Assembly (NCBI RefSeq): GCF_036013525.1 | Contig: NZ_CP107853.1 | Coordinates: 8,556,001-8,620,000 of the forward strand | Source: Nonomuraea sp. NBC_00507 | GTDB lineage: Bacteria; Actinomycetota; Actinomycetes; Streptosporangiales; Streptosporangiaceae | DNA: 64,000 nucleotides | Direction of reading: 5' to 3' | Shown: piece by piece, positions 5,836 through 23,729 of the stretch | Layout: every line of letters starts with the position of its first letter | Position numbering within the stretch: the stretch's first letter is position 1 | Notes under the pieces: model-generated | What the model saw: the letters and a program-made list of their open reading frames with translations, nothing else | Told to the model about the DNA's origin: nothing | Databases searched by the model: none | Translations under genes and position numbers: made by a program

Positions 5836-6162
5836 TCAGTAGGCACCGTCTTCGGCGTCGAATGCGGCGCGAAGGTCCGTCGCGTCCCCCACCGCGAGAC
5901 GCACCCGCCCGGCGTAGCGCACCAGCCGCTGCCGGGCCCGCCGGATCATCGCGGGGTCCAGATCGACCGCGTCCACGTGAGCGGCACCGAACTGGTCAAG
6001 GATGAGCTTGGTGCCGTAGCCGCTTCCACAGCCAATCTCCGCTACCCGCCCACCCGGAGTACGACCGCCCAGCCGGATCAGAAGCGGCGTTTCGTACCAC
6101 CGCTGCAGGGCTCGTCGGATTGGGTTGTTGACCATTAAGGTTTCAACCTGATTCATGAGCAT
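5836..6162 (-). pseudogene. 3'-truncated SAM methyltransferase
   Basis: The frame starts well, with AAGGAGGTG upstream of ATG 6162 or 6156. It encodes a methyltransferase N-terminus (GGRVAEIGCGSGYG for motif I, HVDAVDLDPAMI for motif II, VGDATDL) but stops after 108 aa right behind DAEDGAY, where the family normally continues with motif IV and about 80 more residues. No continuation is visible in other frames downstream. The SAM-binding half alone is unlikely to be catalytic, so I call it a truncated gene, although the good ribosome-binding site means it may still be translated. Confidence 0.7.
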
Positions 6163-6271
6163 ACGCACCTCCTTACCTCCCGCGCCCGGTCTAGGCGGCC
6201 AGCAGATGTTCCGCCTTGACTCCAAGTGGGCAAGAATGATTCTTGTACTATCCGACGTAGGAGGTACGGCC

Positions 6272-7735
6272 ATGCGCGGTCTCGCCTTGGTTGCGGCCGG
6301 CATTGCCGCGTTGATTCTCTCCTTCTCCGATCCCGCCCTGGCGCATGATCATCCGAGCGGCATCAGTGACCTGGTGACCCCTGCGGTGGTCCGGATCGAA
6401 GCCACCGCTCGCATAGAGATCGCATTGATCGACGAGTCCAGCGGAGCGCGTCAAGTCGAGCGCAGCTACGACGTGGAGATCGGCTCGGGCAGTGGCATAG
6501 TGGTCAATCCCGATGGTGCGATCGTGACGCTCACGAGAGTGGTCAAGAGTGACCGGAACCTCGCCGTCTACGCAGCCAATAGGATCTTCGCCGAGTTTTA
6601 CAAGCTGAACATTCCTGCCGACTTCGCCAAGCACACCGTAACGAACGATCGGCTCAATCGGCAGCTCCAGCGGTGTTATTCGTTGGACAGCGAGTCGGCG
6701 ACGTGCGACCTCGACTTAGCAACCTCTGCGACCGTATTTCTGAACACGGTGCCACCGGATACGCAGGGGGTCAGGGCCAAGATCGTCCTGGCCACAACGC
6801 CCGACAGCCCTGCGGTTCTCGTGCCAGTCGGCGGGACCGGAGGCGGCGAGCTCCCCACGGCGCCGCTGGCGGCCCAGGTTCCACGCCAGGAAGGCTCGCC
6901 CGTGAGCGTCGCCGGTCTCCTGGGCCGTCCATCCACGAGCAGCGGCGACCATGTCGAAATCGCGCACCTCGGCAAGCCCGGCACCGGCGAGACGGGACGA
7001 GGCTTCGCTGACCCGCAGCAGAAGGTCGACGAGCCGTCCAAGCTGGGCGAGCTGGTCGACAGGGGCCTCCTCGGCGGACCAGTGATCGGCGACAAGAACG
7101 GACACGTCATCGGCCTCCTGACCGGAGGCGACGGGGACGCGAGAATGATCGGCGTCCGTGAGATCACCTCCGCTCTCCAGAAGGCGGAGATCATCCCACG
7201 CCGAGGTCCCGTCGACGCAGCCTTCGAAGCGGCGTTGACACGCTTCCACACTCAGTACTACGGCTTGGCGGTACCGGGATTCCAGCGTGTCCTGTCCCTC
7301 TCGCCGGGGCACGTCATGGCAGCCGAGCACCTCAAAACAGCGCTGGCCAAGCGGGGTGGCGTCGAAGACAGGGGTGCAGCAGGGAGCGAACCAGCAAGGG
7401 GAACGCCATTGTGGCCGTCGGTCGCGGCGGCCGCGCTCGTCGCCGTGGCACTGGGTGGTGCGGTGCTTCTATGGGCCCGCCGCACAAGAAACTTGCGGGG
7501 GCAGGCCCCGCCGTCTCTGCCGTTGCCCTCAACGCAGCCGCCTTTGGACGAGGGCCCGAGCGCGACGGTCTCCGTTCCGCGACCGCACGCGCTTCCCTTC
7601 CCCGCGCCGATAGAGATGATTCGAGACCACAGCGGGGGCGATAGGTCCTCGGCGAAGTATTGCACCGCCTGTGGCATGCAGATTGATCAGAGCCACAGAT
7701 TCTGCGGCCATTGCGGTCATCGGCGCGAGGCCTGA
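6272..7735 (+). CDS. Membrane-anchored trypsin-like protein lacking catalytic residues, with C-terminal zinc ribbon
   Basis: A 487-aa protein with an N-terminal signal or anchor (residues 1-25), a trypsin/DegP-like domain (about 30-300), a TPR-like helical segment (about 315-360), one membrane helix (about 385-410, AALVAVALGGAVLLWA) and a cytoplasmic CxxC...CxxC zinc ribbon (YCTACGMQID..FCGHCGHRR). In the protease fold GSGSGIVVNPDGAIVT is clear, but the expected catalytic His is Arg (TLTRVV, about residue 89) and the GDSGGP serine is Leu267 (RGLLGGPV). It is probably a pseudoprotease with a binding or signalling role across the membrane. The start ATG has TAGGAGGT upstream; the frame is open further upstream. 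Confidence 0.7.
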   Translation: MRGLALVAAGIAALILSFSDPALAHDHPSGISDLVTPAVVRIEATARIEIALIDESSGARQVERSYDVEIGSGSGIVVNPDGAIVTLTRVVKSDRNLAVYAANRIFAEFYKLNIPADFAKHTVTNDRLNRQLQRCYSLDSESATCDLDLATSATVFLNTVPPDTQGVRAKIVLATTPDSPAVLVPVGGTGGGELPTAPLAAQVPRQEGSPVSVAGLLGRPSTSSGDHVEIAHLGKPGTGETGRGFADPQQKVDEPSKLGELVDRGLLGGPVIGDKNGHVIGLLTGGDGDARMIGVREITSALQKAEIIPRRGPVDAAFEAALTRFHTQYYGLAVPGFQRVLSLSPGHVMAAEHLKTALAKRGGVEDRGAAGSEPARGTPLWPSVAAAALVAVALGGAVLLWARRTRNLRGQAPPSLPLPSTQPPLDEGPSATVSVPRPHALPFPAPIEMIRDHSGGDRSSAKYCTACGMQIDQSHRFCGHCGHRREA

Positions 7736-7764: not shown

Positions 7765-8613
7765 TCACGGGCCAGTGTCCATCGACGGTCGGCCACCGGG
7801 CTCTTGTGCGAGGGGGCTCTCTGAACGTGTGTGCCTTCGCCGCCACAACCAGATCCCCATGGTCTGCCCAAGGAGGACCGCGACGACGGTGAACATGAGC
7901 ACGAGCGTGAACGGGGATGTCATCCGCAACAGCGCCCCGTAGAAGAACGCGTGCAAGACGACCAACGCGAACAACGCATAGTTCAGGCGCTGCAGGTTCT
8001 TCCAACGTCTGGCTTTCAGTTCCCGCAGGGAGCGGTCGTTGGACAGCGTGAGCAGCCCCACCACGATCACCAGCGCGGCCAGCCCGACCCAGTTTCCCAG
8101 GCCGAAACTATTGGTCTTCGGCGTGCCGGTGGCAGAGAAGAAGTAGTTGACGAAGTTGAAGAAATTGTCGGCGTTGCCGTGAGCCTTGAGCCCCACGATC
8201 ACGTGGGCGAGGCTGGCGATCACCGCCCATATCCCTGTGTCGCGCGCCAGCGAGGTGGAAACGGGAGTCCGCCTGCGGAGCAGGAGGTTGGCCGGACCGA
8301 CGAGGAGCGTGAGCCCGAGGAACACGGTGGCGACATAGCCGGTGGCAAGGGTGAACTGCGCTTCGAACGTGCGACCGCCACCGCCGCCCCCGTGCGCCCC
8401 GTACGGGGCGACCGCCGGCAACGGGGACGGGGACCCCATGTCCAGCAACGCGAAACCCCCGTTGGTGAAGGGCGGGACGCCCATGAACAGAACAAAGAGC
8501 ACGGTGCCCACGAGAGCGAGTGGCACGTGGTGGAAGAGGAGGCGACGATGCCAGTCGCGGCCGGTGCCCAGCGGGGGGCCTAGCTGGTGCGGTGATCGGG
8601 TGGCAGGTTGCAT
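7765..8613 (-). CDS. Ferric reductase-like transmembrane protein
   Basis: A 282-aa integral membrane protein with about six to seven helices. Helices carry candidate heme-ligand His residues (SLAHVIVGLKAHG and VVLHAFFYGALL), as in ferric-reductase-like transmembrane domains (MsrQ/YedZ-like). No FAD/NAD reductase domain follows, so an external electron donor would be needed. A Gly-rich loop (HGGGGGGRTF) lies between TM1 and TM2. ATG 8613 is preferred over an in-frame TTG at 8634; GAGAGGAG lies upstream. It is downstream of a small membrane protein and divergent from a two-component system. Confidence 0.7.
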   Translation of the reverse strand: MQPATRSPHQLGPPLGTGRDWHRRLLFHHVPLALVGTVLFVLFMGVPPFTNGGFALLDMGSPSPLPAVAPYGAHGGGGGGRTFEAQFTLATGYVATVFLGLTLLVGPANLLLRRRTPVSTSLARDTGIWAVIASLAHVIVGLKAHGNADNFFNFVNYFFSATGTPKTNSFGLGNWVGLAALVIVVGLLTLSNDRSLRELKARRWKNLQRLNYALFALVVLHAFFYGALLRMTSPFTLVLMFTVVAVLLGQTMGIWLWRRRHTRSESPLAQEPGGRPSMDTGP

Positions 8614-8630: not shown

Positions 8631-8849
8631 TCAATGGGCGCCCGCGGGCGGCCGATGCCCGGCCCCGGGCCCGGGCTGTTCCTGGTTCTGGCGCTGTACC
8701 GGTGCGTGTTTGTCCGGCCCTGCCCCACCGCCGATCCCCGCGGCGCCCGCGAGCACCGCGCTGACGACCACCCCGATCAGGACAAGGACGATGGTCCCGG
8801 GCGCCCGTACCCAGATTGGTACGCCGGTTGTCGAACCGCGCTCAGCCAT
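8631..8849 (-). CDS. Small single-pass membrane protein
   Basis: A 72-aa protein: a short N-terminus, one hydrophobic helix (APGTIVLVLIGVVVSAVLAG) and a Pro/Gln/His-rich hydrophilic tail. The ATG at 8849 has AAAGGGG upstream. The stop lies 18 bp before the ferric-reductase-like ATG and overlaps that gene's alternative TTG start, so the two are cotranscribed. No family is recognised; it may be an accessory subunit of the membrane reductase (inference). Confidence 0.6.
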   Translation of the reverse strand: MAERGSTTGVPIWVRAPGTIVLVLIGVVVSAVLAGAAGIGGGAGPDKHAPVQRQNQEQPGPGAGHRPPAGAH

Positions 8850-8894
8850 GTGCACGCCCCTTTCTCGGTCGGCGCCAGTCCAGCAAGAGGGGCG

Positions 8895-8933
8895 TTAGGG
8901 CGGTGCTAGGGGATTCCCTAACCGGCTCCTAAC
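8895..8933. promoter_or_regulatory. Four hexamers at 11-bp intervals: probable OmpR-type regulator binding region
   Basis: TTAGGG (8895), CTAGGG (8906), CCTAAC (8917) and CCTAAC (8928) start exactly 11 bp apart. They make two direct repeats in opposite orientation, with a TAGGG-N4-CCCTA dyad in the centre. OmpR-family regulators bind direct repeats spaced one helical turn apart. The element sits between the divergent membrane-reductase operon and the response regulator, so autoregulation plus control of the reductase is the natural reading. Confidence 0.7.
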
Positions 8934-8956
8934 ACGGTGGGCGGGACGATGGCGGC

Positions 8957-9613
8957 GTGCGCGTACTGGTGGTGGAAGACGAACGACTGCTGGCCGACGC
9001 GATCGCCGCTGGGCTTCGCAACCACGCCATGGCCGTCGACGTGGCTTACAACGGCGACGCCGCGCTGGAGCGCCTGGCGGTCAACGACTACGACGTCGTC
9101 GTGCTGGACCGTGATCTGCCCCGCCTCTCTGGCGATCAGGTGTGCACTACTCTCGTGGACTCGGGGACCGATGCCCGGATCCTGATGCTCACCGCCGCCA
9201 CCGCCGTCAGCGAACGGGTGCGCGGGCTCGGCCTGGGCGCCGACGACTATCTCACCAAACCGTTCGACTTCACCGAGCTGCTCGCCCGCATCCACGCCCT
9301 CGGCAGGCGGGCCCGACCTCCTGCCCCGCCGGTGCTCGAACGCGCCGGCATCCGCCTCGACTGGCACCGCCGCACCGTGACCCGCGACGGCAAGCCCGTC
9401 ACACTGTCCCGCAAGGAGTTCGCCGTCCTGGCCGAACTGCTGCGCGCCGACGGCGGCGTGGTCTCCGCCGAGCAATTGCTGGAGAAGGCATGGGACGAGC
9501 ACACCGATCCATTCACCGGCGTGGTCAGGTTCACCATCATGATGGTGCGCCGCAAACTGGCCGACCCGCCGATCATCGACACCGTCCCCGGGGCCGGATA
9601 CCGCATCCCATGA
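8957..9613 (+). CDS. OmpR-family response regulator
   Basis: A 218-aa regulator. The receiver domain (1-115) has acidic pocket E7/D8, phospho-acceptor D51 in VVVLDRDLP and the Lys of LTKPFD. The winged-helix effector domain (about 125-218) has the typical LSRKEFAVLAELLRADGGVVS and VDTVPGAGYRI-like features. It starts at GTG 8957. The stop overlaps the histidine-kinase ATG (ATGA). It probably binds the 11-bp-spaced hexamers just upstream; related dyads occur before the LVIVD and tyrosinase genes. Confidence 0.92.
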   Translation: MRVLVVEDERLLADAIAAGLRNHAMAVDVAYNGDAALERLAVNDYDVVVLDRDLPRLSGDQVCTTLVDSGTDARILMLTAATAVSERVRGLGLGADDYLTKPFDFTELLARIHALGRRARPPAPPVLERAGIRLDWHRRTVTRDGKPVTLSRKEFAVLAELLRADGGVVSAEQLLEKAWDEHTDPFTGVVRFTIMMVRRKLADPPIIDTVPGAGYRIP

Positions 9614-10833
9614 CCACGGTCCGGACCCGGCTCACCCTGCTGTACGCCGGCGCCTTCGTCCTCGCCGGCGTGGTGCTCATCGCCCTGATGTACGTCTACT
9701 TCGGGCACGCGCTCGGCCAGCATGCGGCCACCCGAGCCGCCATCGCCGAAAGGCTCACCACAGACTTCCTGAACCAACCCACCGCCCACGCCGGCACCGG
9801 GCAACTGCACGAAGCGCTCAAAGCCCAGTTCCAGCAGGACCGCAACGACACGCTGCGATCGCTGCTCATCTGGGCGATGGCCTCGCTCGGCATCGTCGGC
9901 CTCGGCGCGGGCGGACTCGGCTGGCTACTGGCCGGCCGGGCGCTGCACCCCCTGCAGCAGATCACCGCAACCGCCCGCCGCGTCGCCGACCGCAGCCTGC
10001 ACGAACGCATCGCCCTCCAAGGGCCCGAGGACGAGATCAAGAACCTCGCCGACACCTTCGACGCCATGCTCGAACGGCTGGACCGCTCCTTCGACGGTCA
10101 GCGGAGCTTCGTCGCCAACGCCTCCCACGAGCTGCGCACCCCGCTGACGATCAACCGCACCCTGATCCAGGTCGCCCTCGACAACCCCGACGCTCCGCGG
10201 GCCACCCGCGAACTCGGCACCGCGTTGCTCGAGGTCAACCAGCGCCACGAACGCCTCATCGACGGACTCCTCATCCTGGCCACCAGCGACCAGCAGCTCA
10301 CCGAGCACCAGCCCGTCGACCTCGCCGACGTCGCCCGTCGCGTCGCCGCCGTCTCCGGCGACGCGGCACGCAGCGCCGGGGTCGAGATCCGCACCACCAC
10401 CACAACGCCCGCCCTCACGGCCGGCGATCCTGTGCTGCTGGAGCGGCTCGTGCAGAACCTGCTCGACAACGCCATCCGCTACAACCTCGACCGGCACGGC
10501 TGGGTCTCCGTCACCACCGGCATCAGCGACGGGCACGCCTGCCTCACCGTCGACAACACCGGCCCTACTGTGCCCGGCGACGAGATCGGCGGGCTGTTCG
10601 AGCCATTTCGCCGGCTGGCCTCGACCGACCGGCTCACCGACTCGGCCTCGGCCGTGCCCGGCCGCGGCGCCGGCCTGGGCCTGTCCATCGTGCGCTCAGT
10701 CGCCCACGCCCACCACGGCAACGTCCACGCCCGCCCCCGCGCGGACGGCGGCCTCACCGTCCATGTCCGTATCCCTGCCAGCGACCACACCACCGTGGCA
10801 GGCCAGGGCGGCTATCCGATCCAGGCGATGTAG
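9610..10833 (+). CDS. Sensor histidine kinase
   Basis: A 407-aa kinase with TM1 (about 7-30), a short extracytoplasmic loop of about 55 aa, TM2 (about 80-103), a HAMP domain, a HisKA domain with H173 in ASHELRTPL, and a HATPase domain with NLLDNAIRYN (N box), VDNTGP and GRGAGLGLSIV (G boxes). It is coupled to the response regulator by ATGA. The sensor loop is short, so it may sense membrane or near-membrane signals, perhaps through the adjacent reductase-like protein (inference). Confidence 0.92.
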   Translation: MTTVRTRLTLLYAGAFVLAGVVLIALMYVYFGHALGQHAATRAAIAERLTTDFLNQPTAHAGTGQLHEALKAQFQQDRNDTLRSLLIWAMASLGIVGLGAGGLGWLLAGRALHPLQQITATARRVADRSLHERIALQGPEDEIKNLADTFDAMLERLDRSFDGQRSFVANASHELRTPLTINRTLIQVALDNPDAPRATRELGTALLEVNQRHERLIDGLLILATSDQQLTEHQPVDLADVARRVAAVSGDAARSAGVEIRTTTTTPALTAGDPVLLERLVQNLLDNAIRYNLDRHGWVSVTTGISDGHACLTVDNTGPTVPGDEIGGLFEPFRRLASTDRLTDSASAVPGRGAGLGLSIVRSVAHAHHGNVHARPRADGGLTVHVRIPASDHTTVAGQGGYPIQAM

Positions 10834-11060
10834 AGCGCGTCCAGCACGAGGACCGCGCCGGTCAGCAAGGCAACCAGCGAGCCGTCCAGGGAGGGCCGAC
10901 CTGGTTCGGCAGCGCAGCATCGCCTGTCTGATCAACACGTACAGCGCAACCGAGGTAATGCAACGCGCCATCGAGGGGACCGATCGGGAGCACCACCCAG
11001 AGCATGCCCATCCCGGCGAGCAGCGCGAGCGCGGACTCCATCAGTTGAGGGCGCGCGGCC
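10813..11060 (-). pseudogene. Possible remnant of a small membrane protein
   Basis: On the minus strand, hydrophobic segments are spread over more than one frame: SALALLAGMGMLWVVLPIG near 10990-11045, and a second segment ending VLVLDALYIAWIG before a TAG at 10813-10815. Together they look like a frameshifted membrane protein. Weak evidence: the region is short, has no clear start, and its 3' end overlaps the histidine kinase. The family is not recognised. Confidence 0.3.
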
Positions 11061-11086
11061 GCCAGCCGTCTATCCGACGGCTGCAT

Positions 11087-11121
11087 ACAAAAAGGGCCAC
11101 GGCGGGATCCCGCCGTGGCCC
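11087..11121 (-). terminator. Intrinsic terminator of the 636-aa LVIVD gene
   Basis: A 28-bp perfect palindrome (GGGCCACGGCGGGATC and its complement, 11094-11121) begins seven bases past the gene's stop. On the minus strand it is followed by TTTTT. A textbook rho-independent terminator. Confidence 0.85.
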
Positions 11122-11127
11122 ATGCGC

Positions 11128-13038
11128 TCATCCTCCTGTGTAGCGGAAGATCCAGAGCCCGCTGTCCCTGTCACTGCCGAAGATGTACATCTTGTTCTTG
11201 ATCTTCGCGGCTTCGACGCCCCAGAAGTTGTTGCCGTTGGCGTCGATGTATCTGCCGACTTCCTTGATCCCCCACGGGCCCACCTTGATCACGCGGATGC
11301 CTCCGGCGTAGTAGGACAGGTAGGCCAGATCGCTACGCTCCGGGTCGGTGGCGACCTCGTGCACACTCAGGTCGCCGAAGCCGGTGGCGTACGCGGGATC
11401 GATGCCCTCCTTGATCGCATAGTTGTCGATCTCCCTGAGAGTGCGCGCGTCGAGCAGGTGCACGGTCCCCCAGCCGTCGAACGTGGTCGTCGCCTTGACG
11501 CCCGCGCCGATCGTGCCGAGGGCCGGCATGTCGGAGCCTTCCGGCGCGGAGGCGTACTCCGGCGAGTCGTCGAAGAGCAGGTGACCGGCCCGGTGGCCGA
11601 TGCACACGGCGGACGCGGTGATCGTGAAGTCATGCCCCTGGGCACCACAGAAGTAGCCGTCCGCGAACCGCCCGGCACTGGTGGCGACGTGACTCTGGAT
11701 GACGATCACCTTGTCGTAGCCCGCCAACTGCCCGGACTCGACCTTGATGGAGAAGAAGCAGGCCCCGCGGGTGAAGACCACGACGTCCGCTCCCGTGCTG
11801 GCCTTGCTCGGCACCTCGGCCCGGTCACTGACGCCGTTGCCGTCGACGTCCTCCACGCAGCCGGTCCCGCCCCAGACGGTCTTGGCCCCTTCGAAGGTCT
11901 TGGTGGGCAGGCTGCTGATGGGCACGGTCCAGTCGAACTCCCCTGCGCCGTACGTCCCGGCGTTGGCACCAGAGGTGACCTGGAAGGAGGTCCTGCTGGG
12001 GCTGAAGTCCTCGTCCGTGCCGACGATGAACCTGTTGTCCCTCGTCCACTCGGCCTGGTGCCCGTTACCCTCGGGCGGGCTGAAACCAAGCAAGTTCTCC
12101 GGGTCCGGGTAGCGGGAGTCGGTGACGTAGACGGGGTTGGCCGGATCGTCCAGGTTGAGGATGACCCATCCGGCGTCCCAGTAGGAGATCAGGCCGTACC
12201 AGTGCCCGCGGATCTGCTTGACCTGGAAGTCGTGGTTGAAGACTGTCTGGCCGTTGCCGCCCACCTCGGCGTTGGGCCAGTCGGCGATGCTGGTCTCGGC
12301 GATCAGTACCGGGTTCGCCGGGTCGGTGATCTCCATGATGTCCACATCGCCAACCGACTGCTCCAGGTCGTCGGACATCATCGCGAACGCCCGCTCGCCC
12401 GCCTGCCAGGCGAAGACGCTGTGCTCGTCGTTCGCCACCGTCTGCGTGCCGTCGTTGAAGTCGCCCTTGCCGATGGCCAGCGGGACGATGTTCTTCGGAT
12501 CCGTCACGTTGTAAATCGACATGCCGCCGACGGCTTCGGGCGCGTCCGAGCAGATCTCATTGTTGGTGACCAGGATGTCGCCCTTGAACTTCGCCGTCTT
12601 CACCTTGATGACCTGCATTCCCTCACCGGGGTACGACCCGTTGGGGAAGGCGGTGAAGGACAGTTCCTTGGGCGCGTTGGGGTTGGAGACGTCCACCGTG
12701 TAGAAGCCGCCGCTGCCGCAGGGGTCGGTGTTCAACCGGCGGGCGGCCAGATAGGCGTAGTTTCCGAAGACGGCGACATCCGCGATGTGACCGGGACGGT
12801 TCTCGCCAGTGGCGCCGCTCACGTCGAGCTTGCCCACGAGTTGCACGTTCTTCTTCGTACCGGGGAGATGCCCCTCAGTACCGCCGTGCTGGTGATCATT
12901 GCCGGCGATCTCGGGATCCGTGGCTTCAGCTCTCAGGCTGGGGCTCGGGGTAGGGGGTTGAGGGCTCGCGATCCCGACGCCGCTCATGGCTAAGGTCAGG
13001 GTCATGACGGCCGGGACTACCAATAAGCCTCTTCGCAT
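11128..13038 (-). CDS. Secreted LVIVD-repeat protein with protease-associated-like insert
   Basis: A 636-aa protein with a signal peptide (MRRGLLVVPAVMTLTLAMSG). Multiple LVIVD-type beta-propeller blades are visible, such as YTVDVSNPNAPKEL, MSIYNVTDPKN, DIMEITDPANPVLIAE and WVILNLDDPANPVYV, ending GSDRDSGLWIFRYTGG. Around residues 415-450 an inserted region (DVVVFTRGACFFSIKV..YDKVIVIQ) resembles a PA domain. ATG 13038 is preferred over an upstream GTG (13083) because AAGAGG lies about ten bases away and the signal peptide follows. It is divergent from another LVIVD gene across a gap with a TAGGG..CCCTA dyad. Function unknown; extracellular binding or structural roles are plausible. Confidence 0.8.
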   Translation of the reverse strand: MRRGLLVVPAVMTLTLAMSGVGIASPQPPTPSPSLRAEATDPEIAGNDHQHGGTEGHLPGTKKNVQLVGKLDVSGATGENRPGHIADVAVFGNYAYLAARRLNTDPCGSGGFYTVDVSNPNAPKELSFTAFPNGSYPGEGMQVIKVKTAKFKGDILVTNNEICSDAPEAVGGMSIYNVTDPKNIVPLAIGKGDFNDGTQTVANDEHSVFAWQAGERAFAMMSDDLEQSVGDVDIMEITDPANPVLIAETSIADWPNAEVGGNGQTVFNHDFQVKQIRGHWYGLISYWDAGWVILNLDDPANPVYVTDSRYPDPENLLGFSPPEGNGHQAEWTRDNRFIVGTDEDFSPSRTSFQVTSGANAGTYGAGEFDWTVPISSLPTKTFEGAKTVWGGTGCVEDVDGNGVSDRAEVPSKASTGADVVVFTRGACFFSIKVESGQLAGYDKVIVIQSHVATSAGRFADGYFCGAQGHDFTITASAVCIGHRAGHLLFDDSPEYASAPEGSDMPALGTIGAGVKATTTFDGWGTVHLLDARTLREIDNYAIKEGIDPAYATGFGDLSVHEVATDPERSDLAYLSYYAGGIRVIKVGPWGIKEVGRYIDANGNNFWGVEAAKIKNKMYIFGSDRDSGLWIFRYTGG

Positions 13039-13108
13039 GCTGCTGGACCTCTTCGTCTCGTCTGCAGGGGACACGAGTGGCATGTGCGCACACTGATCGG
13101 ACGGTACG

Positions 13109-13125
13109 TCCTACAACATGTAGGA
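13109..13125. repeat. Inverted repeat in LVIVD divergent promoter
   Basis: TCCTACA-ACA-TGTAGGA is a perfect 7-bp inverted repeat with a 3-nt spacer, 70-90 bp upstream of the leftward LVIVD gene. It could be an operator or a small mRNA hairpin. No regulator is identified. Confidence 0.4.
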
Positions 13126-13178
13126 GGAAGAGGCGTGCCCGGATCTGGCCAGATCATTTCATGACAGCCAATACCGCA

Positions 13179-13197
13179 TAGGGGTCCGGTCCCTAAC
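13179..13197. promoter_or_regulatory. TAGGG..CCCTA dyad between divergent LVIVD genes
   Basis: TAGGG-N7-CCCTA followed by AC lies about 140 bp from both divergent LVIVD starts (13038 and 13333). It shares its half-sites with the element upstream of the response regulator at 8957, though the spacer is seven rather than four bases. Candidate binding site for that regulator. Confidence 0.45.
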
Positions 13198-13332
13198 AGG
13201 ACAGTTGCCCGATCACGGCGGCCCATGGCGGTAAACGTCGAATATTGACATCTCCTACAGCGCGTCGGACACTTTGCAGGTTTCACCGACGAAGGGCGTA
13301 TCCCAGGCGTTGACTCCCACAGGAGCGTGCCC

Positions 13333-14697
13333 ATGCGAATCCCGTCCCGATTACCGCTGCTCCTCGCCATCACCGCAGGTTTGGTCCTCCTGCTGCCGCA
13401 GGCCGCCGTGGCCGATCACATCGACGCCGCGAGCACGTTCACCACCAGCAAGAACATGCACGCCATCGGCCTCTCCTCGAGGGCGAACACGATCAACCCG
13501 TTCACCGCCAACTCCGACCTCGCCTTCTGGCGGAACCGCGCCTACCAGGGGCATTACGGCGGCTTCCGCACCCTCGACATCAGCAACCCGACCCGCCCCA
13601 AAGAGGTCGTCTTCCAGGAATGCCGCGGCGACCAAGGCGACATCGTCGTCTGGGACAAGATCCTGATCCGCTCATGGAACTCCCCGGCGCCCGCAGGAGC
13701 GACCTGTGACGGCCAACCGGTGGCCGAGGGCTTCGAGGGTGTCCACGTCTTCGATCTCACCAACGAAAAGGATCCGGCGCTCGTCGGCTCGGTGGAGACC
13801 GAGTGCGGCTCGCACACCGCCACCATCGCGCCAGACCTCCGCAGCCGCCGCCTGATCGTCTACAGCAATGTCTCCAGCGGCTGCGACGCGATCGACGTCA
13901 TCGAGGTACCGCTCGCCAACCCGGCCGGCGCCCGCCTGCTGCGCACCGAACCGCTCGATGGCCCGTTCACGACCGGCGTCGCACCAGGCTGTCACGACAT
14001 GGGCGTGATCCAGGGCTCAGCAAACCTGGCCGCCTGCGCCAGCGCCGATGGGACCAACGTGTTCGACATCGGCGACAACGCCTGGCCCGGCGGCAGCGTG
14101 GAAGACCCGGCATTCCTCTACACGATCAGGGAGCCGGGAGTCGGCGATCTGACGCAGGGCTCCGGCCGATGGCACTCAGCCTCCTTCACCTGGGACGGCA
14201 AGGTGATCATCCTTGGCTGGGAGCCCGCCGGTGGAGGTGGTCCAAGATGCACGGCGACAGGCACCGTGCTGCCCGGTGGCGTCCTCCAGACCGACACACA
14301 CAAGTCGCTGTTCTTCTACGACGCGGCAAATGGCGCCAAGCTCGGCCAGTGGGTGCTGCCGCGTGCCCAGACCGTGGAGGAGAACTGCACGCTGCACAAC
14401 TACAACGTGATCCCGCTGAACCACCGGTACGTCCTTGTCAGCGGTAACTACCAGTCCGGGATCAGCGTCCTGGACTTCACCGACCCGGCCAAGGCCAAGG
14501 AGATCGCCTACGCCGACCCGGCGCCGCTCGTGCCGACGCAGCTCGCCGGCGACTGGTCGACGTACTGGTACAACGGGTTGATCTACGAGTCTGACATCAC
14601 GCGGGGCCTGCTGGTCTGGTCGTTGTTCGACGTACGTGCGCTCGGGCGCCCGCAGCACCACCTCAACCCGCAGACCCAGGAGACGACCCTCCGTTGA
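13333..14697 (+). CDS. Secreted LVIVD-repeat protein
   Basis: A 454-aa protein with a signal peptide (LPLLLAITAGLVLLLPQAAVA, cleavage before DHIDAAS). Propeller-like repeats are FRTLDISNPTRPKEVVF, VHVFDLTNEKDPALVG, and a last blade ISVLDFTDPAKAKEIAYAD followed by WYNGLIYESDITRGLLVWSL. Six or more Cys fit an oxidising extracellular location. ATG 13333 has ACAGGAG upstream; an in-frame GTG lies two codons earlier. It is followed by a third LVIVD gene in the same direction. Binding partner unknown. Confidence 0.8.
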   Translation: MRIPSRLPLLLAITAGLVLLLPQAAVADHIDAASTFTTSKNMHAIGLSSRANTINPFTANSDLAFWRNRAYQGHYGGFRTLDISNPTRPKEVVFQECRGDQGDIVVWDKILIRSWNSPAPAGATCDGQPVAEGFEGVHVFDLTNEKDPALVGSVETECGSHTATIAPDLRSRRLIVYSNVSSGCDAIDVIEVPLANPAGARLLRTEPLDGPFTTGVAPGCHDMGVIQGSANLAACASADGTNVFDIGDNAWPGGSVEDPAFLYTIREPGVGDLTQGSGRWHSASFTWDGKVIILGWEPAGGGGPRCTATGTVLPGGVLQTDTHKSLFFYDAANGAKLGQWVLPRAQTVEENCTLHNYNVIPLNHRYVLVSGNYQSGISVLDFTDPAKAKEIAYADPAPLVPTQLAGDWSTYWYNGLIYESDITRGLLVWSLFDVRALGRPQHHLNPQTQETTLR

Positions 14698-14709
14698 CCG
14701 CGCCGCGCC

Positions 14710-14741
14710 CGGCCGTAGCTGCTAGGGATCTGATACGGCCG
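14710..14741 (+). terminator. Stem-loop between two LVIVD genes
   Basis: CGGCCGTA and TACGGCCG form an 8-bp stem, extendable with one bulge into the flanking GC, around a 16-nt loop that itself contains CTAGGGAT. Placed 13 bp after the stop, it may be a terminator or attenuator. The TAGGG half-site in the loop may be coincidental. Confidence 0.45.
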
Positions 14742-14784
14742 GCGCGACGCTCCCCACTGACCCACCCTTGTCATGGGAGCCACC

Positions 14785-16590
14785 ATGCGCCCGAGAACCC
14801 GCATCCTCCCCCTGCTCGCCTGCCTCCTCATCGCCTCACCAGGCTGGACGGTTGCCGACCCCGATCCGCATGACGGCAAGAGCCACGGCTGGCAACCGGC
14901 GGCACCACAGCAAGCACAGGCCCTTGCCGCCACCCCCTGCGTCGGCGGCTCAGCGGCCGGCTACCCCTGCAACAAAGTCGACCTGATGGCCCAGCTGCCG
15001 CTGAACACGATCGGCGGCGGCAGCGGCAACGACATCTGGGGCTGGACCGACCCTCAGACCGGCCGCGAGTACGCGCTGGTCGGCAGGTCCAGTGGCACGT
15101 CCTTCGTCGACGTCACCAACCCTGCCGCGCCCGTCTACCTGGGCAACCTGCCCACCGCCACGGTCAACTCCAGCTGGCGCGACATCGAGGTCCACAACAA
15201 CCACGCCTACATCGTCTCCGAGGCGTCCGGCCACGGGCTCCAGGTCTTCAACCTCACCCGGCTGCGCAACGTCACCAGCCCTCCGGTCACGTTCACCGCC
15301 GACGCCCGCAACACCTCCTTCAGCACCGCCCACACCATCACGATCAACACCCAGACCGGCTTCGCCTACGTCAACGGCTCCAACACCTGCTCGGGCGGGC
15401 CGCGCATGTTCAATCTCGCCACCCCAGCCAATCCGGTCTTCGCCGGCTGCGTCAGCGCCGACGGCTACACCCACGACTCACAGGCCGTGATCTACAACGG
15501 GCCCGACACCCGCTACACCGGCAGGGAAATCCTCCTGAACTCCAACGAGGACACTCTGACGATCTTCGACGTGACCACCAAGTCGGCCCCCGTCCAGCTC
15601 TCCCGCACGACCTACAGCGGCCGCGGCTACACCCACCAGGGCTGGCTCACTGAAGACCACCGCTACTTCTTCCTCAACGACGAGACCGACGAGCAGAACT
15701 TCGGCCACAACACCCGCACCCGCGTCTTCAGCATGGCCAACCTGACCAGCGTCTCGCTGCTCGGCTTCTACTCCGGCCCGACCGCCGCCATCGACCACAA
15801 CCTCTACATCAAGGGCAAGTACGTCTACGAGTCCAACTACACCGCCGGCCTGCGCATCCTCGACAGCACCAACGCCGCCAACCCCGCCACGATCACCGAG
15901 GCCGCGTTCTTCGACGTGCACCCGGCCAACAACAACGCCACGTTCAACGGCACCTGGGCGAACTACCCGTTCTTCAACAGCGGCACCGTGATCGTCAACA
16001 GCATCGAACGCGGCCTGTTCGTCCTCAAGCCGAACCTCGACGGCCCGCCTCCCGTCACCGTCTACTCCGACGACTTCGAGTCGGCGACCGGCTGGACCCC
16101 CAACCCTGCGGGCTCGGACACCGCGACCGCGGGCCAGTGGGAGCGAGGCGACCCCGAGGCGACCAGCTCCGGCGGCACGTCACTGCAGCAAGGCACGACC
16201 GTGAGCGGCGCAAACGACCTCGTGACAGGACGGCTTGCCGGATCGAGCGCGGGCACGGGCGACATCGACGGCGGAACGACCAGCATCCAATCCCCCGCCA
16301 TCACGCTCCCCGCCTCGGGACCGCTCACCCTGTCCTTCTCGTACTCCTTCGCGCATCTGAACAACGCCAGCTCGGCCGACTTCTTCCGCGTCAGGATCGT
16401 CGCAGCCGCCACCAGCACGGTCTTCCAGCAGACGGGCGCGGCGAGTGCCCGCTCAGGCGCATGGACCTCAGGTTCCGCAGATCTGTCGAGCTTCGCCGGT
16501 CAGACGATCAGGATCCTGATCGAGGCGGGTGACGCGGCGGGCGGCAGCCTGGTCGAGGCCGCCGTGGACGATGTAAGGATCACTCAATAG
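14785..16590 (+). CDS. Secreted choice-of-anchor-B/LVIVD protein with C-terminal beta-sandwich
   Basis: A 601-aa protein with a signal peptide (LPLLACLLIASPGWTVA). Residues 50-420 are LVIVD/choice-of-anchor-B type: DIWGWTDPQTGREYALVGR, FVDVTNPAAPVYLGNLP, a His-rich HNNHAYIVSEASGHGLQVF, HQGWLTEDHRYFFLNDE, DHNLYIKGKYVYESNYTAG. The last ~165 residues, from YSDDFESATGWTPNP, form a MAM/jelly-roll-like binding domain ending AAVDDVRITQ. ATG 14785 is chosen for its GGGAG and signal peptide; ATG 14773 is possible. Homologues occur in marine bacteria and eukaryotes; the function is not known. Confidence 0.85.
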   Translation: MRPRTRILPLLACLLIASPGWTVADPDPHDGKSHGWQPAAPQQAQALAATPCVGGSAAGYPCNKVDLMAQLPLNTIGGGSGNDIWGWTDPQTGREYALVGRSSGTSFVDVTNPAAPVYLGNLPTATVNSSWRDIEVHNNHAYIVSEASGHGLQVFNLTRLRNVTSPPVTFTADARNTSFSTAHTITINTQTGFAYVNGSNTCSGGPRMFNLATPANPVFAGCVSADGYTHDSQAVIYNGPDTRYTGREILLNSNEDTLTIFDVTTKSAPVQLSRTTYSGRGYTHQGWLTEDHRYFFLNDETDEQNFGHNTRTRVFSMANLTSVSLLGFYSGPTAAIDHNLYIKGKYVYESNYTAGLRILDSTNAANPATITEAAFFDVHPANNNATFNGTWANYPFFNSGTVIVNSIERGLFVLKPNLDGPPPVTVYSDDFESATGWTPNPAGSDTATAGQWERGDPEATSSGGTSLQQGTTVSGANDLVTGRLAGSSAGTGDIDGGTTSIQSPAITLPASGPLTLSFSYSFAHLNNASSADFFRVRIVAAATSTVFQQTGAASARSGAWTSGSADLSSFAGQTIRILIEAGDAAGGSLVEAAVDDVRITQ

Positions 16591-16597
16591 GAACGCG

Positions 16598-16648
16598 AGG
16601 TGTGCCGGCGCGGGTCCGTGTGCTAGATCATGCCGCGCCAACACACCT
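16598..16648. terminator. Long imperfect hairpin between convergent genes
   Basis: AGGTGTG / CACACCT and GGCGCGG / CCGCGCC pair with small bulges around a ~19-nt loop, eight bases after the stop of the choice-of-anchor-B gene and before the convergent tyrosinase-fusion gene. Likely a terminator. No T-run follows. Confidence 0.55.
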
Positions 16649-16704
16649 ACTACGAAGAATAAGTGCTCCCTTACCAGTCTCAGAACCCAGGGGTGCGCTG
16701 AGAC

Positions 16705-19275
16705 CTACGCACGTTCGTCCCTCGGGATGGATCGGTCGTCCCCGCGGGTCCATACCGCGATCGTGCGGAGCTCTTCGCGGGTGAACGGCTCGCCGCGCAG
16801 CGAGCTGCCCTCTGCCCGTACGAGCACTCGATAGAGGCCGGCCACGGGGGTGGGTACGGTCCCGGCGAACTCGCCGTCCGCCACTTCGGGCAACGGCATC
16901 CGGTGCGGCTTGGCGGCGGGCCCGCTGACCACGGCGCTGACCGAAGCCGTGTGCGCGAGCGGGATCCCGGCCTCCGCCAGCGACACGGTGAGCTGCGCGT
17001 CGCCGCCGGGGCGGCGCGAGGACTGCTTGACGGTGATCGCCATCCGGATGGCCGAGCGAGCCTGGACGGCCAGCGTGTAGGGCAGGCCGTGCGTCTTGAT
17101 CCGGTTGATCGTCTCGAAGTCCCTGCGTTCCTCCAGCTCATTGATGATCCGCTTCAGTTCGTCCGGATCGATGGACAGATGCGCCTTCCACTCCCCGCCG
17201 ACCGGCCCCGGCAGTGCCGGGCTGGGCAGGGCCAGCCGGAGCACGCGGTGGTTGGCCGTGGCGGCGAGCTGGGCGCCGTTGGTGTCGTCGATGCGGGTAC
17301 GGTCGGGCGCTTCGAGCGCCACTTTCAACGCGCGGGCGAACGGGGTGAGCACGATCACGTCGCTGCGGCTGTCGGCCTCGGTGAGCGGGTACGGCTCCAC
17401 GGCCGTCCCGCCGATCGGGACGAAGCCGTCCGGATCGACGATGATCTGGGAGTTCGTCATGCCCGCGATGATCTGGGCGTAGTACTTCTGCAGCCGGATC
17501 TGGTCGTCGGCGCCCGCCTGCCCGGTGAGCAGCAGGTACCCGCCCGTGCTGTCGACCAGGTCACCCAGTGCGGCGGGATTGAGCTGCTCGGCCGTGCCGA
17601 GACCGACGGCGAACACCCGTGCGGTGATCAGCGGCGCGACGTCGGCGATGAACTTCGGCGCCGTCTCGAACCCGTCGGTGAACACCACGGTGGCCTGCGA
17701 GCTGAACCCGGAGGTCACCCCGAGCTGCGTGGCGGCCGCCTCCAGGCCGTCGCCGATCGAGGTGAGACCGTTGGGGTCGGTGACGTGGTTGGAGATCGCG
17801 TTCAATGCGTTCGTCCTGCCCAGGCCGCCGATCGTGCCGCCCGCCACCTCGACGGGCATGGCCTCGGCGGCGTCGGTGTCGAACTGGATCACGCCCACCG
17901 CGTCGTCGTCGCCGAGCAGGTGCACGAACAGCGGCGCGGAGTTGCGCAGCACCTCGATCCGCTTGAGCCCGGCGACGCCGGACGGCGCGTCCATGCTGCC
18001 GGAACGGTCCAAGACCATGGACGAGGCCACGGTCGGCTTGGCGATGACGTTGGCCTCGATCGGGATGCTGAAGGTGTCGCCGGTCTCGGCAACGTTGACC
18101 TCCAGCGTCCCGGACGCGGACGAGCCCGCCGTCCCCGGGTTGAACAGCACCCACACGAAGACGTCGTGCGCCACGTAGGCCTGCGGGTCCGGTGTCACCA
18201 CGGTGGATTGAAGCAGGGTGACGGCCGGGTCACCCTTGACCGCGGCCTGGCAGGTGACCGGGCGGCAGCCGCGTACCCGAAGGCGCAACGCGCGGGCCGT
18301 CTGCTCGCCCTCGGCCACGTCCAGGAACCGCAGCGGAATGCCGGGAGCCGGGGCGATCTGCGTGACGGTCACCGGCAGCGAGTCGTAGCACGGCGGGGCG
18401 ACCACGGAGGCGTGGCGGCAGTTCTTCACCTCGATGTCGGTGGAGCCGCTGGTCCACGGCGGGATCGGCGACCCGAACTCGACCGTGCCGTCCCACGGCT
18501 GCAGGTTGTGCAGGATGCCTTCCGACCCGGTCGAGTTCGTCTCGTTCCCGTAGACCTGTGCCTGATCCAGCCGCCATTCCTGGCCCGGCCGGGTCTGCCA
18601 CATCGCGAACAGCCGGTCGACGTTGGAGTGCAGCAGGAAGACGAACGGGTCCTCGAAGGATGCGTGGGGGTTGAAGATGTTGCTCCCCGGCCCGAAGAAC
18701 GTGTGTGCGGTGTTGTGCGAGCTCTCCAGCGCGGCCCGGAAGCTGGGCCACTGCTGTCCCTGGGGCAGCGTGTCGCTGCCGGTGATGATCGTGGCGTCGG
18801 GACTCACCCCTGGCGCTCCGGGTGCACAGAACCGCTTGATCGCCGGGGGTGGGTCGGCGGGATTGCCCGTCTGGTCGCGGCTCCCCGCGAGCTGGTCACC
18901 GTTGTGGAGCGGCGCCAGCACGCCCTGCACCAGGCCGCTCGCCGTACCGAAGAAGTCGTCTGTCGTCAGGTCCACCGTGCCGCCGTTGCCGTCGTCGGCG
19001 GCGCGCGGGTCCTGGGTCCAGTCCCAGTAGTGCAGCGCCACGTCCGGGTCCACCTGTTGCAGGAGGCGTTCGTAGCGATTGCACAGCTCCCGGTGCCACG
19101 GGATGAACGACGGCCCTCCGTGGTTGTGGGTGCCCTGATGGATCTGGTCCTGCTTGTCCCAGTACGACACGCCGTCGGCATACGAAAGGAGATCCGCCTT
19201 CCGCACCGCCGCCACGAAGGCGTCGCGCTCGGCCTTGGTGAGATGCGCGATGTTGCGCCGCATCGGTCTGGCCAT
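16705..19275 (-). CDS. Tyrosinase-domain / von Willebrand factor A fusion protein
   Basis: An 856-aa protein. Residues 1-260 form a type-3 copper (tyrosinase) domain. Candidate CuA ligands are H46, H52 and H61 (HNHGGPSFIPWHRE); CuB ligands are H187, H191 (SSHNTAH) and H216 (LLHSNVDR). Residues ~410-610 form a VWA domain with an intact MIDAS: D423-S425-S427 in LDRSGSM, T505 in GLTSIGDG, D534 in FTDG. A beta-rich C-terminus (~690-840) follows. No signal peptide is seen, and the start at 19275 is not far upstream of the first copper motif, so the export route is unclear. A TAGGG-N4-CCCTA dyad lies 80-100 bp upstream. The enzyme could oxidise phenolic or protein substrates; the VWA part suggests adhesion (inference). 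Confidence 0.85.
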   Translation of the reverse strand: MARPMRRNIAHLTKAERDAFVAAVRKADLLSYADGVSYWDKQDQIHQGTHNHGGPSFIPWHRELCNRYERLLQQVDPDVALHYWDWTQDPRAADDGNGGTVDLTTDDFFGTASGLVQGVLAPLHNGDQLAGSRDQTGNPADPPPAIKRFCAPGAPGVSPDATIITGSDTLPQGQQWPSFRAALESSHNTAHTFFGPGSNIFNPHASFEDPFVFLLHSNVDRLFAMWQTRPGQEWRLDQAQVYGNETNSTGSEGILHNLQPWDGTVEFGSPIPPWTSGSTDIEVKNCRHASVVAPPCYDSLPVTVTQIAPAPGIPLRFLDVAEGEQTARALRLRVRGCRPVTCQAAVKGDPAVTLLQSTVVTPDPQAYVAHDVFVWVLFNPGTAGSSASGTLEVNVAETGDTFSIPIEANVIAKPTVASSMVLDRSGSMDAPSGVAGLKRIEVLRNSAPLFVHLLGDDDAVGVIQFDTDAAEAMPVEVAGGTIGGLGRTNALNAISNHVTDPNGLTSIGDGLEAAATQLGVTSGFSSQATVVFTDGFETAPKFIADVAPLITARVFAVGLGTAEQLNPAALGDLVDSTGGYLLLTGQAGADDQIRLQKYYAQIIAGMTNSQIIVDPDGFVPIGGTAVEPYPLTEADSRSDVIVLTPFARALKVALEAPDRTRIDDTNGAQLAATANHRVLRLALPSPALPGPVGGEWKAHLSIDPDELKRIINELEERRDFETINRIKTHGLPYTLAVQARSAIRMAITVKQSSRRPGGDAQLTVSLAEAGIPLAHTASVSAVVSGPAAKPHRMPLPEVADGEFAGTVPTPVAGLYRVLVRAEGSSLRGEPFTREELRTIAVWTRGDDRSIPRDERA

Positions 19276-19356
19276 GATGGTCCCCCCACCCGGGTTCGGA
19301 CACTGCTAACAGACCGACGCTACGGGGCAACGCCCTGTTCGGCCCCGGGGCACGAC

Positions 19357-19372
19357 CTAGGGATGTCCCTAG
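19357..19372. promoter_or_regulatory. Perfect CTAGGGATGTCCCTAG-type dyad upstream of the tyrosinase fusion
   Basis: TAGGG-N4-CCCTA with the same spacing as the central dyad upstream of the response regulator at 8957. It is embedded in a longer inverted repeat (GGGCACGA..TCGTGCCC, about 19348-19380) and lies 82-97 bp upstream of the tyrosinase-fusion start. It could be an operator, a hairpin terminator for the LVIVD remnant at 19394, or both. Confidence 0.55.
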
Positions 19373-19393
19373 TCGTGCCCGCGAGCCGTACCG

Positions 19394-19486
19394 CTAGAAG
19401 CCGCGCAAGCCGCGCGGTTTGACGATCCACAGGCCGGTGGTCATGTCACTGCCGAGGATCAACCCGTGCCTCCTGTCGACGAACAC
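19394..19486 (-). pseudogene. C-terminal remnant of an LVIVD-repeat gene (minus strand)
   Basis: The last ~30 codons of a minus-strand frame read RHGLILGSDMTTGLWIVKP, a typical last blade of LVIVD proteins (compare GSDRDSGLWIFRYTG in the gene at 11128). Homology stops near 19486, exactly where the opposite-strand LVIVD remnant begins. No N-terminal part exists nearby. Confidence 0.65.
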
Positions 19487-19840
19487 GCCCACACCTGCGG
19501 CGGGACGTCCCCTTCCGCGGGCGGAACGAACTGGCCAAGCTGGCGGGAGACGTCCTGGTCGTTCCGCGACCTGGCCCTGACCGCCTGGCACTCCGGCGGC
19601 CTGCAGGCCATCGACATCGCCGACCCCCGCCGTCCGGCCCAGGCTGGCTGGTACTCCCCTACGCCCCTACCGTCCGTCGCCATCGAGGACCCGGCGCTCA
19701 ACCGCGGCCCCAACAAGGTCACCATGTGGAGTTTCCCGATCGTCCGCAACGGCCTGATCTACGTCGTGGACATCCGCAATGGTCTGTACGTGCTGTCCTA
19801 CACCGGCCGGCACACCAAGCAGGTCCGTGCCACCCACTAG
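19487..19840 (+). pseudogene. C-terminal remnant of an LVIVD-repeat gene (plus strand)
   Basis: About 115 codons, ending with a TAG at 19838-19840, contain LTAWHSGGLQAIDIADPRRP, ALNRGPNKVTMWSFPIV and GLIYVVDIRNGLYVLSYTG, the closing blades of an LVIVD protein. The N-terminal two thirds, the signal peptide and a convincing start are missing; only an in-frame GTG at 19466, inside the neighbouring opposite-strand remnant, could start it. A fragment, probably not functional. Confidence 0.7.
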
Positions 19841-21073: not shown

Positions 21074-22228
21074 TTAGTGGAGGCGCAGGTGTTTGCGCAT
21101 CCAGCGAGTGACCGGCGGAAGGGCGGCCAGACGAAGTGGCAGATCGCGCTTCAGCAGGTCCAGCCGGTTGGCGGGCGCATGGGAGCCGGTGTTGCGGCGG
21201 CCCATGGCCTGTCGTTCTTCGGCTTCGGGGCGCAGTTCGGCCTCCCATTCGCGGAGCGCGGCGGGAACATCGTCGGGGTGGCGGAGCAGCGCCGTGCCCA
21301 GGAGTTCGGCGCCTCCGACGGCCAGTGAGGAACCGTAACCGGCGAACAGCGTGACGCACCAGGCGGCGTCGCCGAGCAGCACCACCCGGCCGTCGCTCCA
21401 CCGGTCGGCGACGATCTGACTGACGCTATCGAAATAGACGCTGTCGGCGGACATGCCCCTGATCAGGTCTGGAGCAGCCCAGGTGACGTCGCGGTAGGCC
21501 TCGGTCAGCGCCCGTCGTGGCCCCTTGGCCAGTTCCGCGGCCGGATCCACGACGCCGTAGGTGAAGAAGGCCGCCGTCCGGCCCGGCCCAAGGTTGGCGA
21601 TCATGAAGATGTGACCGACGCGGGTGACCGTGGTGAAGGCGCGTTCACGTGCCCCGTCGGGCAGGTGGTCCAGCCTCATGGCGGCAACCACATGTCCGAG
21701 GTCGCGGCGGAAGCCCTCTTCGGGACCGAAAACGAGCTTGCGTACCGTCGAGTGCAATCCGTCCGCTCCCACCAGCAGGTCGGCATCGAGTACGGTGCCG
21801 TCGTCGAGCTCGACGCACACGCTGTCTTGGTTCTGCTTCACCGCGGTGAGCGTGGTGCCGAACCTGATCGCCACCTTGCCCTCCACCGCCTCATAGAGCG
21901 CTTCCTCGACGTCGCCCCGCATGAGCGTCAGCCCGCGGTCCCCGAGCAGGGCTTGCACGGCACGGTGCGGGACAGTGAACCGGTGCCGACCGTCGGCCTT
22001 CTTGTAGATCATGTCCACGGCGCCGAAATGGCGGTCGCGCAGCGCGGGCAGGACGCCCATGCGCTCGGCGGCGTCGTAGCCGCGGCCGAAGAACGCGACC
22101 GCGTATCCACCGCTCCGGCGGGCCGGGGCCCGCTCGATGACCACCGGCTCCCAGCCGATGCGGTAAAGCCGCAGCGCGGCGGCCAGCCCGGCGATACCCG
22201 CCCCGACGATGACGGCTCTGTAGGTCAT
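21074..22228 (-). CDS. FAD-dependent monooxygenase
   Basis: A 384-aa group-A flavoprotein monooxygenase. The Rossmann motif is VIVGAGIAGLAAALRLYRIG, the DG motif LLVGADGLHSTVRKLVFG, and the GD motif VVLLGDAAWCVTLFAGYG, where the usual GDAAH..P is altered to GDAAWC. It is similar to TetX-like and aromatic hydroxylase-like proteins. It overlaps the upstream DHA2 exporter by four bases (ATGA), so exporter and monooxygenase are coupled. This suggests joint detoxification of a small molecule sensed by the divergent TetR protein. Confidence 0.85.
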   Translation of the reverse strand: MTYRAVIVGAGIAGLAAALRLYRIGWEPVVIERAPARRSGGYAVAFFGRGYDAAERMGVLPALRDRHFGAVDMIYKKADGRHRFTVPHRAVQALLGDRGLTLMRGDVEEALYEAVEGKVAIRFGTTLTAVKQNQDSVCVELDDGTVLDADLLVGADGLHSTVRKLVFGPEEGFRRDLGHVVAAMRLDHLPDGARERAFTTVTRVGHIFMIANLGPGRTAAFFTYGVVDPAAELAKGPRRALTEAYRDVTWAAPDLIRGMSADSVYFDSVSQIVADRWSDGRVVLLGDAAWCVTLFAGYGSSLAVGGAELLGTALLRHPDDVPAALREWEAELRPEAEERQAMGRRNTGSHAPANRLDLLKRDLPLRLAALPPVTRWMRKHLRLH

Positions 22229-23637: not shown

Positions 23638-23655
23638 GGGGCTCCTCACAGCAGA

Positions 23656-23694
23656 GAATGAGCATATGCTCATTCAGTATGAGCATGTGCTCAT
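23656..23694. promoter_or_regulatory. Tandem palindromic TetR operator
   Basis: GAATGAGCATATGCTCATTC (23656-23675) is a perfect 20-bp palindrome. Three bases later ATGAGCATGTGCTCAT (23679-23694) repeats the same half-sites with an imperfect centre. Both lie in the divergent promoter of the exporter and the TetR gene. The pair suggests cooperative binding of two dimers. Confidence 0.85.
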
Positions 23695-23729
23695 TCTCTG
23701 TAAATGCTGTTCGGGTAGATTGGCTGGTC

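Follow-up and report, generated by a model that had tools for sequence, protein, structure and literature searches.

Back-to-back 11-bp repeats form a candidate two-way operator of an OmpR-type regulator in Nonomuraea

Introduction

Does a TAGGG/CCCTA motif that recurs within one 64,000-nt stretch of the 12.9-Mb genome of a Nonomuraea strain (the window) tie several gene groups to one regulator, or does it belong to a single two-component system? An earlier note on the window had proposed that an OmpR-type response regulator encoded from position 8957 controls, through this motif, a membrane reductase, a pair of divergent LVIVD genes and a gene fusing tyrosinase and VWA domains. The analysis reported here supports a narrower answer. 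With a probability of roughly three in four, the element at 8894-8933 is an operator dedicated to the 8957 regulator, autoregulatory and two-way, and the motifs at 13179 and 19357 are not regular members of its target set.

A unique array of four half-sites precedes the regulator gene

The four hexamers described upstream of the regulator gene were confirmed to the base: TTAGGG at 8895, CTAGGG at 8906, CCTAAC at 8917 and CCTAAC at 8928, in steps of 11 bp. Read by strand, the hexamers resolve into two tandem pairs with CCTARC-like half-sites (CCTARC-N5-NCTAAY) that share a centre and both point outward, with CCTAAC-cggct-CCTAAC on the + strand (8917-8933) and CCTAGC-accgc-CCTAAC on the - strand (8910-8894). 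A genome-wide search for the four-site pattern with up to three mismatches returned one place, this one, with no mismatch, against two for a backwards-pattern control. The tandem unit CCTARC-N6-CTAAY occurs at exactly two genomic places, which are the two halves of the array; the backwards control reaches 2-3 places, which puts a lone unit at chance level and leaves only the placement of two units back to back (within 40 bp) as special.

The regulator gene (8957..9613, + strand, GTG start) encodes an OmpR/PhoB-type protein whose Pfam Response_reg and Trans_reg_C domains both pass the curated cut-offs, and, judged from sequence only, this regulator has a direct-repeat DNA site near its own promoter. 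A histidine kinase gene (9610..10833, + strand, ATG at 9610) follows; its HAMP, HisKA and HATPase_c domains were found in the longer open reading frame (ORF) 9142-10833. Assignment of the regulator to VanR-O (NCBIfam) was rejected at 252.9 bits against a curated cut-off of 505, as was assignment to CutR, itself an OmpR-type regulator, the TAWATAAA motif being absent from both strands of 8850-8957.

The array is conserved with orthologous regulators

Five further arrays with both tandem pairs were found in four other genomes, namely G253, G249 (two arrays), L101 and L102. All six arrays from the five genomes align without gaps across the operator; the half-sites hold the invariant columns (TTAG, G-TAGG, CTAAC and C-AAC) and the three spacers hold none. 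Orthologs of the regulator at 85-90% identity are encoded by Nonomuraea sp. G32 (G249/G341), by G253, and by two metagenome-assembled genomes (MAGs), one of Pseudonocardiales (L101) and one labelled Chloroflexi (L102), while Nocardia orthologs reach 80-82%. When the 60 closest members of a deduplicated set of 130 regulators were placed in a tree, midpoint-rooted for drawing, the orthologs and the Nocardia and Mycobacterium rows make up one clade of 14 rows with support of 100/99.

Among 54 genomes of the genus, a full-length regulator match exceeds 72% identity only in the window genome and G249; the piece in G253 came to light through its array, so other truncated copies without an array could have been missed. 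The match in G253 (contig L096, 1073-1543) stops at codon 157, and no kinase or tyrosinase match lies between it and the homologs of window 21074-24329. G249 is classed as the same species as the window genome, yet its closest regulator is only 88% identical and stands in another gene context, and the genome has no tyrosinase-VWA match.

A scan of 341 genomes of the family for the array matched four genomes, of which the fourth, G263, was taken as chance, with no match to the eight window proteins tested. In a phylum sample of 396 genomes, a near four-site pattern with one mismatch matched once, as TTATTTCGGGATAGGCGAAAACCTAAAAATATCTAA in G417, a scan that says little because the letters of the window's own array fail this stricter pattern. 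Three stray tandem matches were seen, in G341, G253 and G345.

Fixed spacing to -10-like hexamers on both sides of the array

A -10-like hexamer, GACGAT (8945..8950, + strand), lies 11 nt after the + strand pair, and another, TGGACT (8877..8882, - strand), lies 11 nt after the - strand pair. From their spacing and conservation, the two would mark putative promoters of the regulator and of the divergent genes, respectively. As the start codon of the regulator is only a few bases past its -10-like hexamer, its transcript is probably leaderless. The right pair followed after 11-12 nt by a -10-like hexamer was present in 12 of 16 upstream regions tested, the hexamer being GACGAT in the window and G253 and CACGAT, CACCAT, CATGAT or TAAAAT elsewhere; all six Nocardia orthologs keep it, as CYAAC-N6-CYAAC-N12-CACGAT. 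The left pair with a -10-like hexamer at exactly 11 nt was present in six of the 16 regions and in 6/6 arrays, with TGGACT in the window, G253 and the second array of G249, TGAGCT in the first array of G249, TGAACT in L101 and TAGCCT in L102.

This layout suggests a mechanism in which each of the two tandem pairs would be occupied by one regulator dimer, the dimers lying on opposite strands and pointing away from each other. Either dimer would substitute for a -35 element 11 nt before its -10 hexamer and recruit RNA polymerase, such that one array could drive the regulator and kinase genes rightward and the genes of a membrane peptide and a ferric-reductase-like protein leftward.

The same geometry could instead belong to a repressor operator, with the regulator sitting at the -35 region and blocking both promoters. 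A site over the -35 region of both putative promoters fits occlusion as well, and CutR is reported to repress or activate according to the position of its site (PMC12802291). We nevertheless regard repression as unlikely: the half-sites themselves are the only conserved candidates for a -35-like hexamer. A fixed distance of 11-12 nt to the -10 element is, moreover, usual where family members such as PhoB activate. Besides this alternative, several observations weigh against a dedicated two-way activating operator. The left pair is absent in 10 of the 16 upstream regions, including those of all six Nocardia orthologs, which limits the two-way layout to a subset, and the more distant regulators L109-L112 (74-76%) show neither pair. 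The + side hexamer of the window, GACGAT, is weak; one half-site of L101 reads GCCAAC, and the divergent ORF there resembles, by eye, a methyltransferase rather than a reductase. Of the seven genomes searched (G253 and those behind L100-L103, L105 and L108), five contain single tandem units, at 0-3 per strand, which does not exceed the 0-4 of the backwards control. The clustering of genomic palindromes, described below, is also left unexplained.

Inverted TAGGG/CCCTA pairs at the LVIVD and tyrosinase-VWA genes

The inverted pairs that had suggested a wider regulon do exist. TAGGG-N4-CCCTA stands at 8907-8920, within the array, and at 19358-19371, upstream of the tyrosinase-VWA gene (two in the window against 0.02 expected in shuffles), and TAGGG-N7-CCCTA stands at 13179-13195, between the divergent LVIVD genes. 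A CTAGGG half-site at 14722, enlisted for the same regulon, is present as well; it is uninformative, the window holding 10 CTAGGG against 14.8 expected, and is kept in G214, a genome without a regulator match. Genome-wide, TAGGG-N4-CCCTA occurs at four places against 17 for the backwards control, and TAGGG-N3-9-CCCTA at 11 against 64, three of the 11 lying within 10.5 kb here. One (L002) of the eight places outside this cluster adjoins a major facilitator superfamily (MFS) transporter gene like that at window 22225-23673.

Neither distant site repeats the organization of the array. No tandem partner within two mismatches was found at 13179 or 19357, and the hexamers at 13179 start 14 bp apart, not 11. 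The sites also vary among relatives. Within the 338 genomes sampled, the LVIVD gene 13327-14697 has close copies in two other genomes, G214 (95%) and G243 (92%), and the 13179 motif is absent from both: in G214 about 480 nt of other sequence replaces this stretch, with the promoter-proximal parts conserved (86% and 96%), and G243 aligns throughout at 74%, yet the 700 nt preceding its copy lack both TAGGG and CCCTA. Only three of the 338 genomes, those of the window strain, G214 and G218, yielded the tyrosinase-VWA gene; at 19358 both relatives have a changed TAGGG arm and keep the TCCCTAG of the other arm.

The gene sets themselves occur apart. G214, G218 and G243, which have the LVIVD and/or tyrosinase genes, lack any regulator match above 72% identity. 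G214 carries the row LVIVD-LVIVD-LVIVD-tyrosinase-NlpC at 88-96% identity, and the 20 kb read at this locus contain no regulator, kinase or reductase. Conversely, G249 has the regulator without a tyrosinase match, and so does G253, which either belongs to the 315 genomes reported as matchless or fell outside the sample, and whose contig L096 shows none. The proposal of one regulator for all of these genes thus holds in part: the array is an operator candidate of the OmpR-type regulator, faces the membrane reductase and is conserved with orthologous regulators. Its extension to the LVIVD and tyrosinase-VWA genes is not supported, since the tandem unit is missing, the sites are not kept in relatives and the gene sets occur apart.

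That the regulator also controls the LVIVD pair and the tyrosinase-VWA gene through inverted TAGGG/CCCTA pairs, or in a weaker form that this strain recently recruited 19357 and/or 13179, appears improbable, though two kinds of observation speak for it. Of the other 10 palindromes, the number expected by chance in the 10.5 kb to each side is 0.016 (P(>=2) about 1.3e-4; 1.2e-3 for the 64 kb), Poisson values for which motif and span were chosen after seeing the sites; and the 19358 site shares the TAGG-N6-CCTA spacing of the array's centre, its TAGGG arm being changed in G214, which has no regulator. Against this stand the lack of a tandem pair within two mismatches at these sites and of the tandem unit anywhere else in the genome, the loss of the 13179 motif in G214 and G243, and the restriction of the regulator to one of the three genomes with the tyrosinase gene. 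An intergenic position is not special either, as five of the eight palindromes elsewhere in the genome are likewise located outside coding-like ORFs. The isolated DNA-binding domain of PhoP is reported to lose more than 60-fold in binding when offered half a repeat, and about 20-fold when the spacer is shortened by 1 bp (PMC4832192). Because three of the 11 palindromes cluster within 10.5 kb, a small chance of a recruited site is kept. For the tyrosinase gene, we lean slightly towards another account, in which the inverted repeat at 19347..19380, with TAGGG-N4-CCCTA at its tip, is the gene's own operator or hairpin, serving another regulator or acting as a structured element, and the likeness of its tip to the array is fortuitous. 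The outer arms share nothing with the array, the repeat is more stably folded than its shuffles both in the window (-17.6 kcal/mol, z -5.1) and in G214 (-15.5 kcal/mol, z -3.5), and in G214 the stem persists, one bulge base being displaced, although TAGGG is lost. G218, on the other hand, has no hairpin (z -0.2), and the comparison covers just three sequences. Folding cannot tell 19347-19380 from the regulator array, which is also more stable than its shuffles (-11.1 kcal/mol, z -3.0). We retain the dedicated two-way operator as the preferred reading of 8894-8933 and assign neither 13179..13195 nor 19347..19380 to its regulon.

A better candidate operator for the LVIVD genes is the palindrome TCCTACAACATGTAGGA (13109..13125), upstream of the - strand LVIVD gene 11128-13083, in which TCCTA-N7-TAGGA is kept in G214, G243 and G218. 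A promoter-like pair, TTGACA-N17-GACACT, belongs to the + strand LVIVD gene and is kept in G214 and G243. Judged by titles and the starts of abstracts, none of the literature matches listed for LVIVD concerned regulation of these genes, and the phrase 'LVIVD repeat' together with 'actinobacteria' gave nothing. A short ORF at 19466-19840 resembles the C-terminal end of an LVIVD-type protein and is perhaps a gene remnant; 70 of its residues match at the same place in G214 (81%). In G218 (L098, 8452-14659), the tyrosinase gene, a homolog of the protease-like gene 6155-7735 and an LVIVD gene adjoin, an arrangement by which the 6155 gene may belong to a variable LVIVD-tyrosinase island.

Genes facing the array

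Leftward of the array, on the - strand, lie the genes of a 72-residue peptide with one hydrophobic stretch (8631..8849), similar by eye to the divergent peptides of L096 and L102, and of a ferric-reductase-like membrane protein (7765..8613; its listed ORF begins at 8634 and ATG 8613 is the probable start). The latter is 56% identical to an L102 protein that just passes the PF01794 cut-off (28.6 against 28 bits); the window protein itself gave no Pfam match up to E 10 and a weak MamZ match below the cut-off. L102 has the same pair of peptide and reductase, of which G253 shows the peptide together with a partial reductase.

In G249 (Nonomuraea sp. G32), the regulator array faces FMN_bind, ApbE and NqrB/RnfD-like genes, and beyond them, about 2.4 kb away (L095, 9960-12500), lies the second complete array, with TGGACT at the same spacing, which precedes a small peptide gene and then ABC-transporter and FtsX genes. 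The left side of this second array is still regulator-promoter-like (N12-CATGAT), which suggests that the array was duplicated as the flavin genes came between. Kinship of the peptides is uncertain because the one at the second array gives a weak match to the L102 peptide (E 0.002) and, at E 0.01, none to the window peptide.

Discussion

An 11-bp spacing also stands out in a wider set of related regulators. Among 130 deduplicated regulator upstream regions (from 143 loci, 141 of them usable), searched from -85 to -20, perfect 6-mer direct repeats at 11-bp spacing occur in 30, against 1-8 at each of the 11 other spacings in the range 7 to 18; tolerating one mismatch raises the figures to 69 and 21-45. 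These regions are related sequences, and the counts are not independent. Half-sites could be compared with recognition helices in the rows with a perfect repeat among the 60 shown, most rows having none. The helix GVVRFTIMM/GVVRYTIMM goes with a CTAAC-type half-site in L005, L067, L102 and L108 and with CGCACG in L110; NTVR-type helices go with half-sites of GTTATG, GCGTTA or GTAACC type, NVVR-type helices with TTACCG or CTTAC type, and GVVRLTILK (L079, one perfect row) with GTTTCC. A helix-to-half-site code among the paralogs is a lead, not a result. We tentatively suggest, holding it somewhat short of an even chance, that these paralogs, of which an actinomycete genome may contain up to about a dozen, mark their own promoters with 11-bp arrays, each with a private half-site that follows the recognition helix, and that the arrays act as movable two-way promoter cassettes, duplicated in G32 and now serving gene rows for flavin electron transfer and an exporter. 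On this reading, GVVR[F/Y]TIM would pair with CTAAC, NTVR with GTTAT or GCGTTA type, NVVR with CTTAC or TTACCG type, and G[A/V]VRLTILK with GTTTCC. If so, genomes would spell out the DNA-recognition code of the family, and if the link between helix and half-site holds, targets of many unstudied regulators would become predictable from sequence. More immediately, the analysis provides a precise candidate operator for an uncharacterised two-component system, tied to membrane redox genes in distant bacteria, and illustrates that motif recurrence within a single window can be misleading unless the layout of the half-sites is taken into account.

Comparison with known systems places the array within a familiar class. 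Mycobacterium tuberculosis PhoP binds direct repeats of 7+4 bp (11 bp) as a tandem dimer, and according to the authors of that work every known OmpR/PhoB-family site is a direct repeat (PMC4832192). The window regulator resembles PhoP in its receiver and winged-helix domains and its 11-bp tandem half-sites; it differs in having two pairs placed back to back as a two-way operator, and in the half-site CCTARC. The system is also like Streptomyces CutRS, an actinomycete two-component system with a sensor kinase bearing an extracellular domain, although the CutR consensus is TAWATAAA; the CutR promoter was reported as enriched in chromatin immunoprecipitation sequencing (ChIP-seq) and not bound in vitro (PMC12802291). 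Unlike the flavinylation clusters described in PMC8238504, the window contains no relatives of the G249 FMN_bind, ApbE and NqrB-like proteins by tblastn, and the six G249 ORFs scanned lack the NqrF domain (PF00175). As in those clusters, which are of MsrQ-like and NQR/RNF-like kinds, the operator has beside it a PF01794-type membrane protein (in L102, and in the window by homology) or, in G249, FMN_bind, ApbE and NqrB/RnfD-like genes; flavin clusters that combine ApbE and FMN_bind with PF01794 proteins are an established type, reported as broadly conserved in Actinobacteria (PMC8238504).

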